Assembly: GCA_947041945.1 (NCBI GenBank)
Contig: CAMREV010000003.1
Coordinates: 1 to 64,000 of the forward strand
Source of the DNA: an uncultured Mycoplasmataceae bacterium
Lineage (GTDB): Bacteria > Bacillota_I > Bacilli_A > Mycoplasmatales > Mycoplasmoidaceae
DNA: 64,000 nt
Direction of reading: 5' to 3'
Shown here: one piece after another, positions 5,210-9,142 of the stretch
Position numbering within the stretch: the stretch's first letter is position 1
How the letters are laid out: the number at the start of each line of letters is the position of its first letter
Program-made: the position numbers and the translations under genes
The notes under the pieces: model-generated
The model's database searches: none
The model's input: only the letters and a program-made list of their open reading frames with translations
What the model was told of the DNA's origin: nothing

Positions 5210-6178
5210 TTATTTTAGTGATTGAAATGCTGTAATGTATGCTATAGACTTTGCTGCTTCAACACTAGCTCCTCTACTTAAATCATTCATTGGTTTGTTT
5301 AAACCAACTACAACCGGGCCAATAGCAACCACATCATTAGAAAGCCTTTCCATTATTTTATATCCAATATTTGCAGAATCTAAATTTGGAAAAATAAATA
5401 AATTTGCATTATTTTTTCATTTTATAGATTTTACTTTTTTATTTCTAACATTTTTATCAATAGCTGCATCAAATTGAATTTCACCAAAAAACTCAACATT
5501 TTTAACTTTTTTATTTTTAATTAAATTATATGCTTCTCTAACTTTATCTACTGATTCACCAGCTCCGCTTCCATTAGTAGAATATGAAAGTAAAGCTGTA
5601 GTAATTTTCTTATTTAGAATTTTACTTGAAAATCTTGCACTTTCCAATGCAATTGAAGCAAGTTCTTTTGAATTTGGGTTTAGATTTAATGAAACATCAG
5701 CAAACATTAATATGTCATCACTTTTTTCCATAAACATAATACTACTTACAAGTTCAACTCTTTTACTTTTTCCAATTACTTGAAGAGCAGCTCTTAATGT
5801 ATCTTTTGTAGTATATTCAATTCCACAAACAACTCCATCAACTTTTTTTCTTTCTAGTAATAATGCAGAGAAGTAATTTGGTTTAGAACAAAGAACTTGA
5901 GCTTCTTCAATACTTAGGTTTTTATGTTTTCTAATTTCATATAATCTTTTTGTATAAGAATCTAACTTAATTTCACTCATTATAATTTGTTTAATATTTT
6001 TAATAGCATTGATATTATTTTTTTTTTCAAATAATAATACCGGTTCAACAATGCCTTCTTTTTTTAATTGAATTGCTGCTTCTTGAATAGTTTTATTTCA
6101 ACCTTCAGTGAAAAGAATTGATGCTTTAACTTTTTTTGATTTTAAATCTTTACTTAATTTTTTAATAAATTTTCCCAT
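5210..6178 (-). CDS. pta: Phosphate acetyltransferase
   Basis: Pta exchanges CoA for phosphate on acetyl-CoA, giving acetyl phosphate that acetate kinase can use to make ATP. The 322-residue protein matches the single-domain Pta length. It carries DGVVCGIEYTT, FADVSLNLNP and the signature LSYSTNGSGAGESVDKV. The C-terminal part contains NIGYKIMERLS and AIGPVVVGLNKPMNDLSRG, matching the conserved end of the family. The start MGKFIKKL at 6178 has GG in its leader. No acetate kinase gene is adjacent. It is transcribed away from the CoA-synthesis block at 6233. Confidence 0.96.
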
Positions 6179-6232: not shown

Positions 6233-7453
6233 ATGAAAAAAATTGCTTTGTTTCCAGGTACTTTTGACAACCTTCATGAAGGTCATATTCATATAATTAA
6301 TAAAGCATTAAAAATCTTTGATAAAGTTTATTTGGTAATTGCAAAGAATGAATTAAAAAATAGCGATCTTGAAAAAAATTTTAAGAATGCAAAAAAAATA
6401 ATAAAGAAATTAAATATTAAAAATGTAAAAGTCCTTAAAACTGATAATGATATTCCAACTCTTTTTGAAGAATTAGGTTGTACACACATAGTAAGAGGAA
6501 TTAGAAATTCTAAGGACTATGAATATGAATCTATTCTAATGAAAAAATATAAAAGCAAAAATAATAAAATAGAAGAAGTATTTTTCTTTGCAAATGATCA
6601 ATATATTGATGTTGCTTCAAGTAATAGAAAACTTTTTGCATTTGATGTTGATGGAACTATAGTAAATGATAAGAAAGAATTATTAGAATCTACAAAGATA
6701 GCAATTGCTAAGATTTTAGAAAATAATAATGAAGTTATTTTATGTACAGGAAGACATTATACAAATGTTTTGAAATTAGCAGAAGAACTTAAAGTGAAAA
6801 ATTATTTAATAACTTCAGGTGGTTCAGCACTTTTTGATATAAAGTTAAATAATTTGTCAGTATCAAAAAAATTCCTATCAAAAAAAGATATTGATATTGC
6901 AATTAATTTAGCAAAAAAATATAAAAGAGAACTTATTTGAAATAATGGTGAAAAAATATATCGTGTTTATTTTGGTAAAGATCCAATTAGTGAGATAAAA
7001 GAAGAAAAATACTTTTTTGGTGGTTCTCACATAAATCCAAAATATGATAATTGAAATGAAGTAAAAAGCGAAGTTTACAATAATGTAATTCAAATTACTT
7101 TTAAGGCTGAAAGCAAAACAATTGAAAAGGAATTTAAAAAAATTCATAAAATTATTTCTAATGATTGCATTTGTTATCATGCATCAAACTTTTATATAGA
7201 TTTTTTTGATAAAAGTATTGGCAAGTATAATGCAATAAAAGATTTAGCAAAAAAATTAAATATTAAAGAAAATAACATATATGTATTTGGTGATTCAGGT
7301 AATGACACAGAAATGATTGAAAGATTTGAAAACGGTATTGCAATGGGAAATGCAGCTAAGCATATAAAGAAAAAAGCAAAATACATAATTGGTTGTAACA
7401 ATACTGACTCTATTTATAATTTTTTAATTAAAAAAGGTTTTATAAATGAATAA
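6233..7453 (+). CDS. coaD: Fusion: phosphopantetheine adenylyltransferase (CoaD) + Cof-type HAD hydrolase
   Basis: The 406-residue protein has two domains in one uninterrupted frame. Residues 1-131 are CoaD-like: FPGTFDNLHEGH (nucleotidyltransferase HxGH at 15-18) and IVRGIRNSKDYEYE (near 87-99). CoaD adenylates 4'-phosphopantetheine. This copy ends at the IDVASS segment, equivalent to the ISSS loop, so the usual last 30 or so residues are missing. Residues 134-406 form a full HAD type IIB domain: FDVDGTI (Asp138, Asp140), LCTGRH, and GDSGNDTEM. TGA Trp codons are at about 6938 and 7051. I chose ATG 6233, preceded by TAGGGA, over an upstream TTG at 6209. The gene overlaps coaX by 8 nt, which supports a role in CoA metabolism. 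The HAD substrate is unknown. Confidence 0.9.
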
Positions 7454-8201
7454 TATACTGATACTAGATATTGGAAATTCATTAATAAAAATTTCCTTAG
7501 TAAATATAAATGAAAATAAAGTTGAAGAAACATATTTATTTGGAACAAGAAATTTTAATAAATGAAAATCAGATATTAAAAATTTATTGCACAGTCTTAA
7601 TTATAAAGAAGCATTGATTGGTTCTGTAGTAATTTCAATTAATAAAAAAATAGAATCTTTGTTTCCAAAAAAATCGAAAATATATTTTATAAAAAATAGT
7701 GATTTTAGTTTCTTAGAATTTGATAAGGAATGTGATTTAAAAAATATTGGACTAGACATTCTTGGTTTCTCATATTATTTAATTGAAAACTCAATTAATT
7801 CAATTGGGATATCTTTTGGTACAGCCATTTTTTCAATAATTGTAAAAAATAAAAAAATAATGGGAGTTAGCATACTTCCATCAATTAATAAGGCATTTCA
7901 AGATTTAAAAACAAATACTGAACTTATAAATGATTTTGAAATTAAAAATATTAGAAAAGATTTTGGTTTTAATACAAATGAATGTATTGAATCAGGTTAC
8001 TACCACATTATTTTTGGAACAGTAAGTAGCATTTTAAATTATGCTTATGATAAGTATGATGTTAAAGATGTTTTTATTACTGGTGGTAATTACAGAAATA
8101 TAAATAAGTTTGAATTTGATAAAAAATTTAATATTTCAAATGATCAAGAACAAATAGTAACTCTTGGTTATTTACTTCTTTACAAAATTTTTTTAAATTA
8201 A
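7446..8201 (+). CDS. coaX: Type III pantothenate kinase
   Basis: CoaX phosphorylates pantothenate, the first step of CoA synthesis, and in type III enzymes is an ASKHA-fold kinase. The 251-residue protein starts ILILDIGNSLIKIS (phosphate 1 loop), then has IGISFGTAIFS and GVSILPSI, and ends with VFITGGNYRNI (adenosine loop region). The expected GxDR pattern is divergent here (KNIGLDILGF), so substrate residues should be checked. Its ATG overlaps the end of the CoaD-HAD gene (ATGAATAA), indicating translational coupling. Trp is encoded by TGA at about 7562. Confidence 0.85.
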
Positions 8202-8260
8202 GTTTATTAATTGTTTTATTTATTATAAAATAAATATAGTTTTTAAAAATGGAGAAAATT

Positions 8261-9142
8261 ATGGCAGATGCTAAATTAGTTAAAGAATTAAGAAATATTA
8301 CGCAAGCAGGTTTTCTTGATTGTCAAAAAGCTTTAGATTCTACAAATGGGAATATGGAAGAAGCAATCAAAATTTTAAAAGAAAAAGGAATTGCAAAGGC
8401 TGAAAAAAAATCAGATGCAATTGCAACTGAAGGAGTTACTGACACTCTTGTTGATGGAAATAAAGCACTAATAATTGAAGTAAATTCTCAAACAGACTTT
8501 GTTGCCCAAAACGAAATCTTTTTAAATTTAGTAAAAGAAATGAAAAAAGTAATTTTAGAAAAAGAAATAACTGATTTAAAATCAGTTGAAAACTTAGTAC
8601 TTTCAAATGGTCAAACAATTAAAGATGCTTCAATTGAAGCAACTTCAAAAATTGGTGAAAAAATTTCTTTTAGAAGAGCAAATATAATTAAGAAAGATCC
8701 TACAAGTACTTTTGGTGTTTACACACATCATAATAAGAAATACTCATCGATTGTTGTAATTGACAAAGATATCAATGAAAACATTGCTAAAGATATTGCT
8801 ATGCATGTTGGTGCAATGAATCCTAAATTCTTAAACAAGGAAAATGTTGATCAAGTTTGATTACAAAATGAAAAGGATTTATTAATAAAGAAAACTATTG
8901 AAGAAGGTAAACCGAAAGAATTTGCTGAAAAAATAGTTGAAGGTAGAGTTGGAAAACTATTATCTGAATATTGTTTATTAGATCAACCATTTGTTAAAGA
9001 ACCAACTTTAACAGTGAGTAAATATGTTGCTAACAATAATAATGCTGAAGTTGTATCTATGTTTAGATATGAATTAGGTGATGGTATAGTTAAAGAAGAA
9101 GTAGATTTTGCTGCTGAAGTAGCTGCTCAAATGGGTAAATAA
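8261..9142 (+). CDS. tsf: Elongation factor Ts
   Basis: EF-Ts is the nucleotide exchange factor of EF-Tu. The 293-residue protein starts ADAKLVKELRNITQAGFLDCQKAL, a UBA-like domain with the family pattern. The core contains LIIEVNSQTDFVAQNE, the EF-Tu-contacting signature. The C-terminal part has the second conserved block (FVKEPTLTV, then MFRYELGDGI). A GGAGAAAATT ribosome site precedes ATG 8261. An in-frame codon at 8249 is less likely. In most bacteria rpsB lies directly upstream; here rpsB is found three genes downstream. Confidence 0.98.

Follow-up and report, generated by a model that had tools for sequence, protein, structure and literature searches.

Does the joining of a CoA enzyme to a phosphatase mean that the phosphatase works in CoA metabolism? 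The question is raised by one gene of the window, a term used here for the whole stretch of DNA analysed, 64,000 nucleotides of contig CAMREV010000003.1 from an uncultured Mycoplasmataceae bacterium. Nucleotides 6233-7453 of the plus strand form a single frame of 406 codons plus stop, which encodes a 406-aa protein in code 4, where TGA is read as Trp. Two Trp codons of the frame (W236 and W274) are TGA, and the other two frames are interrupted over the same interval by 36 and 41 stops. The first part of the protein is CoaD (phosphopantetheine adenylyltransferase), the second a Cof-type HAD phosphatase. The features of the region are the following.

5210-6178, minus strand: phosphotransacetylase-like gene (pta), divergent neighbour, its identity read from the sequence
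6233-6622, plus strand: CoaD domain, residues 1-130, with HxGH at 15-18, K42, R88/R91 and SS at 129-130; profile, PDB sequence and fold matches
6623-6631, plus strand: joint of about 3 residues, 131-133 (NRK), with no nearby ATG; the sister species retain the ATG (HAD start Met)
6632-7453, plus strand: Cof-type HAD-IIB phosphatase domain, residues 134-406 and stop codon, with D138/D140, T172, K331 and GDSGND at 353-358; fold match
7446-8201, plus strand: coaX (type III pantothenate kinase, TIGR00671), PAN motif GLDI, Arg replaced by Ile; 8-nt overlap with the fusion
8249-9142, plus strand: tsf (EF-Ts), syntenic anchor, found 3' of the free-standing HAD gene in relatives

A genus-specific gene fusion

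An earlier note on this DNA had described a CoaD joined in frame to a complete HAD domain, had placed an ASS segment at residues 128-130 and the HAD Asp pair at D138/D140, and had reported that coaX overlaps the fusion by 8 nt. The first statement is borne out by the single 406-aa frame and by two domain profile matches, both placements are correct, and the nucleotides shared with coaX are 7446-7453. The same note held that some mycoplasmas may share the fusion. CoaD-HAD has been identified in 3 of the 320 genomes of the order that were searched (G000, G001 and G002), all belonging to one genus. The copies of G001 and G002, the two sister species, are in frame and 42% identical to the protein of the window; the G002 copy is broken off by the contig end. 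None was found in the remaining 317 genomes of the order, and among the matches listed for 395 genomes sampled from the class only that of the window itself spans both domains. The claim of a wider occurrence holds for the genus of the window, and not elsewhere in these two sets. Nothing relevant to a CoaD-HAD fusion was found in the literature searched.

The assemblies are drafts, two of them (G001 and G002) metagenome bins, and two genes could have been joined by an assembly or sequencing artefact. Against this, the fusion resides on three separate contigs, diverged to the extent given above, and is flanked in each of them by the same divergent pta-like gene. An accident of assembly can be dismissed as extremely improbable, since the same in-frame fusion recurs in two further genomes of the genus. 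Within the genomes searched, CoaD-HAD is a real, genus-specific fusion.

The two halves of the protein

Residues 1-130 match TIGR01510 (CoaD) over profile positions 1-129 of 155, and score 99.1 bits, slightly below the cut-off of 103.3, a shortfall consistent with the absence of the CoaD tail. Matches to CoaDs in the PDB have E values as low as 8e-19. The catalytic and ligand residues are all there (T10, H15/H18 of the HxGH motif, K42, R88, R91, and S129/S130 of the SS motif), named after those of E. coli CoaD. In the predicted structure residues 1-130 superpose on the solved E. coli CoaD (about 130 residues, 1.6-2.5 A, TMt 0.73-0.74, 30% identity). This half is called here a domain, rather than a full-length family member, because residues and fold are those of CoaD, and the profile score stays under the cut-off.

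The usual C-terminal residues of CoaD, about 30, had been reported as missing. The end is indeed short, but its loss is mostly not an effect of the fusion: the free-standing CoaDs of the relatives sampled are mostly 137-156 aa long, and some have only 7-14 residues past the SS motif. A short CoaD is thus largely a lineage trait, mostly older than the fusion. One PPAT motif is known to be absent in several species of the mycoplasma group (PMC8721197).

One may wonder whether the CoaD half is decaying, the protein being effectively a HAD phosphatase that carries a CoaD remnant. The sub-threshold profile score would fit such a view, as would the RGxRN motif, which reads RAIRN or RSIRN in G001 and G002. 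Residues past the SS motif are absent, among them the equivalents of E134 and R137 of E. coli CoaD, presumably located after that motif, as judged by alignment. Yet the protein of the window retains T10, H15/H18, K42, R88 and R91, the free CoaDs of the relatives are only slightly longer and many of them also have RS at the RGxRN position, and the model superposes on a solved CoaD. Moreover, the CoaD-like gene of the fusion is the sole one found in the genome, the two further members of the superfamily being NadD-YqeK and RibF. Decay of the CoaD half is, on these grounds, rather unlikely.

The NadD-YqeK protein (L001:946-1974, minus strand, own contig 10) ends in an HD domain, and two of the three HxGH adenylyltransferases of the genome bear a phosphohydrolase domain. 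RibF (L003:970-2286, plus strand, own contig 2) carries about 170 additional residues at its N-terminus, which gave no Pfam match at E 0.001.

The CoA genes of the bacterium bear on the role of the CoaD half. CoaE is present, with a profile score above the cut-off. CoaBC was matched by neither of the two models used, and its absence could be a gap, the genome being about 90% complete. CoaX of the window scores 83 bits against TIGR00671 (cut-off 58.2), and its PAN motif reads GLDI instead of the expected hGhDR. Replacement of this Arg by Leu or Ile is reported as general in mycoplasmas, and has been suggested to affect pantothenate binding (PMC8721197). In G001 and G002, both incomplete genomes with the fusion, coaX was not found. 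Since CoaE is present, no CoaBC was detected and CoaX has lost the Arg that binds pantothenate, CoaD probably functions in salvage. As far as the gene set can tell, the most likely role of the CoaD half is to adenylate 4'-phosphopantetheine, as CoaDs do, and to provide dephospho-CoA by the salvage route.

The HAD half is a complete Cof-type enzyme. Residues 134-398 score 161.1 bits against TIGR00099 (Cof-type HAD-IIB; cut-off 137), and the half spans the entire Pfam Hydrolase_3 model (1-255 of 255). The four HAD motifs listed above are complete, D354 and D358 being the acidic residues of GDSGND, and are accompanied by a C2B cap. Fold matches in the PDB are HAD-IIB phosphatases (BT4131 family, YidA and PfHAD1; TMt about 0.8). 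Assignment to the YcsE-related riboflavin phosphatases (NF045966) was tried and rejected, the score being 106.3 bits and the equivalog cut-off 220.

An AlphaFold model of the whole protein, built from 55 aligned sequences of the window and of the loci, has two well-formed domains (mean pLDDT 94.2, pTM 0.80); the block of lowest pLDDT is formed by residues 121-130, immediately before the joint. Taken with the PDB fold matches, the model indicates that both halves can fold despite the short joint. Only generic HAD and nucleotidyltransferase matches were obtained from a viral structure library.

Origin of the fusion

The order of genes in the window is coaD-HAD - coaX - tsf. The relatives G042 and G035 share the arrangement coaD - ldh - HAD - tsf, preceded in G042 by S2 and an MBL gene. 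EF-Ts of the window is 54-55% identical to the EF-Ts encoded downstream of the HAD gene in L065 and L008, and the fused HAD shares 40-44% identity with the free HADs of the relatives. Other arrangements occur. In G283 coaD and the HAD gene lie about 1 kb apart on the same strand; the M. penetrans-like G011 (S2 - coaD - ldh) and G054 (S2 - coaD - ldh - insert - tsf) have no HAD gene at this site. At the joint G001 and G002 carry IKNRKMFLFDVDGT and IKERKMFVFDIDGT (IKNRKMFLFD and IKERKMFVFD, respectively). The Met of both sequences coincides with the start of the free HAD (MKLFVFDIDGT), and the protein of the window has Leu at this place.

Synteny and the sequence of the joint make the following history likely. 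The ldh gene located between coaD and the HAD gene would have been lost in this genus, and the coaD frame would have been read through into the start codon of the HAD gene, giving rise to CoaD-HAD. Loss of ldh and read-through would explain why the HAD start Met is retained at the joint in the sister species. Such a fusion probably comes about when a gene is lost and the frame before it becomes joined to the start codon that follows.

The g9 genomes have coaD next to coaX, and coaD adjoins the same divergent pta gene which flanks the fusion. The proximity of coaD to coaX therefore predates the fusion, or is independent of it. At two loci (L134:2491-4961 and L133:2198-4649) a gene for a CNNM/CBS-domain membrane protein (Pfam, L134) lies between coaD and coaX, on the opposite strand.

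The substrate of the HAD half and its possible link to CoA

About 115 Cof HADs from the searched genomes were used to build trees. The fused HADs cluster with the ldh-tsf HADs and with two g6 HADs (support 0.97-0.99); a branch confined to the fused and the ldh-tsf HADs has a low support of 0.56-0.76. The next groups are encoded beside rpe (L011, L012 and L016), fused to Rpe (L046), or encoded beside a ROK kinase (L009 and L010). Of these rpe and ROK labels, those of L012, L046 and L009 were verified with Pfam, the others assigned by eye. Deeper branches are poorly supported (0.23-0.58). In L012 and L016 the HAD gene and rpe are overlapping neighbours. The HAD-Rpe fusion (L046:820-2304, minus strand, G009) is a protein of 494 aa, and its Cof HAD belongs to a clade neighbouring that of the fused one.

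Five positions of the cap (R232, G248, G264, K291 and E293) are 84-100% conserved across fused, ldh/tsf, rpe, Rpe-fused and ROK-linked HADs. The signature is absent from ten comparison Cof HADs, two of them being the HAD encoded beside coaX in M. penetrans and the one joined to CoaE in HAD-CoaE. Such conservation suggests a shared substrate class, without naming which substrate. Since the signature is common to HADs linked to Rpe, to ROK and to ldh-tsf, the substrate of the fused HAD seems older than the fusion. The HAD half would thus keep its pre-fusion substrate, a small phosphorylated metabolite, and a sugar or pentose phosphate, foreign to the CoA pathway, is the most likely candidate, as judged from the cap and from the relatives linked to Rpe and to a sugar kinase. 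For this locus it had been suggested that the HAD half takes an intermediate of the CoA pathway as substrate, or forms a self-balancing CoA module with CoaD. This is not supported, since the cap is shared with HADs found in non-CoA contexts and differs from that of the HADs linked to coaX and CoaE that served for comparison. The activities of CoaD and HAD are probably independent within the one chain. On balance, we regard it as fairly probable that CoaD-HAD is a lineage-specific bifunctional protein produced by reductive evolution, whose HAD half retained an older substrate.

Cof HADs are found joined to a variety of other partners. Proteins of about 760-790 aa from g10 (L021:1477-3849, minus strand; L180; L203) have a divergent 6-phosphogluconate dehydrogenase-like N-terminus (Pfam, L021), followed by a long Asn-, Asp- and Glu-rich middle part and a C-terminal Cof HAD. 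Tandem Cof HAD domains make up an ORF of 563 aa (L204, contig 28 of G002) in one of the genomes which bear the fusion, and an ASCH domain is fused to a Cof HAD in G182 (L187:1132-2307, plus strand). As Cof HADs are joined to Rpe, to 6PGDH-like and ASCH domains and to each other, the fusion partner is a weak guide to the role of the HAD.

CoA genes are among the partners as well. In Mesomycoplasma-like genomes CoaE is joined to Cof HADs of other clades, in proteins of about 445 aa (L148 and others). Both stages of the process are found in one genus, HAD and CoaE being fused in eight genomes (L148, L150, L152, L153, L155-L157 and L159), and encoded by separate adjacent or overlapping genes in L151 and L154. 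Elsewhere coaE overlaps an upstream Cof HAD gene, and a second Cof HAD gene converges on it (L130:1678-3915). In M. penetrans-like genomes (G011, G028 and G058) a Cof HAD gene of another clade lies directly downstream of coaX (L128:2695-4314, L129:2286-3958 and L147:419-2091). These associations, observed in genomes partly selected for such adjacency, hint that some Cof HADs may serve CoA metabolism.

Two ways in which the HAD half could serve the pathway have been considered. It might act as a brake, dephosphorylating 4'-phosphopantetheine or dephospho-CoA and setting in this way the level of CoA. Fusion to an enzyme of CoA salvage, next to coaX, would suit a brake, and a regulatory role has been proposed, without test there, for the HAD of HAD-DPCK (PMC8721197). 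Such an activity would however oppose CoaD within the same chain, the signature of the cap is found in non-CoA contexts, and the fusion occurs in two genomes, both incomplete, in which coaX was not found. A brake appears quite improbable.

Alternatively, the HAD half might clear wrong or damaged products, or an excess of 4'-phosphopantetheine, at the CoaD half, much as YqeK does for NadD. The layout is the same in the two proteins, an HxGH adenylyltransferase followed by a phosphohydrolase, and both are encoded by this genome. NadD of JCVI-syn3A is nucleotide-unspecific and YqeK removes its products, in-vitro evidence supporting proofreading by NadD-YqeK; FMN and CoA proved to be in-vitro substrates of one Cof HAD of the same organism, 0066 (PMC9426524). 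The HADs of JCVI-syn3A (0066 and others) were mapped to HADs of G095/G063 and G076/G091 by position only, and none of these is put forward as an orthologue of 0066; of the G095 HADs, all seven that were tested lie outside the clade to which the fused HAD belongs. In eukaryotes PANK4 is a pathway-related protein with a DUF89 phosphopantetheine phosphatase (PMC8861153), and HAD-CoaE fusions, besides those found here, were already known (PMC8721197). These elements, above all the CoA-linked Cof HADs, the action of a syn3A Cof HAD on CoA and proofreading by NadD-YqeK, keep a repair role alive. They are offset by the cap signature, which recurs in HADs of the Rpe, ROK and ldh-tsf contexts, by the placement of coaE- and coaX-linked HADs in different clades, and by the diversity of the partners described above. 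In addition, YqeK is a diphosphatase, and HAD-IIB enzymes are typically monoester phosphatases. Clearance of CoaD products by the HAD half is unlikely. The broader proposal, which sets CoaD-HAD beside NadD-YqeK as a further repair enzyme of reduced mycoplasma genomes built from an adenylyltransferase and a phosphohydrolase, and has Cof HADs independently recruited to CoaD, CoaX and CoaE for this task, is a little more doubtful still. If the HAD half did act on CoaD products, the parallel with NadD-YqeK would suggest that minimal cells generally need product repair.

On the favoured reading, of a bifunctional protein whose HAD retained an older substrate, a fusion is by itself no sign of membership in a pathway, and the HAD keeps the cap signature of other contexts. 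CoaD joins the CoA enzymes known as fusions with Cof phosphatases in mycoplasmas, HAD-CoaE and NadD-YqeK being its analogues. Archaeal CoaDs fused to an NTP phosphatase domain are also known.

The closest parts are found in the Malacoplasma-like relatives with the order coaD - ldh - HAD - tsf, where they are homologous, similarly ordered, and CoaD is already short. There, however, the genes are separate, ldh lies in between, and coaX is elsewhere. The HAD of HAD-Rpe comes from a neighbouring clade and shares the cap signature, but it is N-terminal and its partner is ribulose-phosphate 3-epimerase. HAD-DPCK of the M. hyopneumoniae group (PMC8721197) likewise combines, in a reduced mycoplasma genome, a late CoA enzyme with a Cof HAD-IIB. 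In CoaD-HAD the partner is CoaD instead of CoaE, and the HAD is C-terminal instead of N-terminal. As the two HADs belong to different and distant Cof clades, the fusions are convergent. NadD-YqeK (PMC9426524), found in this same genome, shares with CoaD-HAD the order of its domains, a phosphohydrolase placed after an HxGH-superfamily adenylyltransferase. The second domain is in one case an HD-domain diphosphatase acting on the products of NadD, in the other a HAD-IIB phosphatase with a cap shared with non-CoA HADs.
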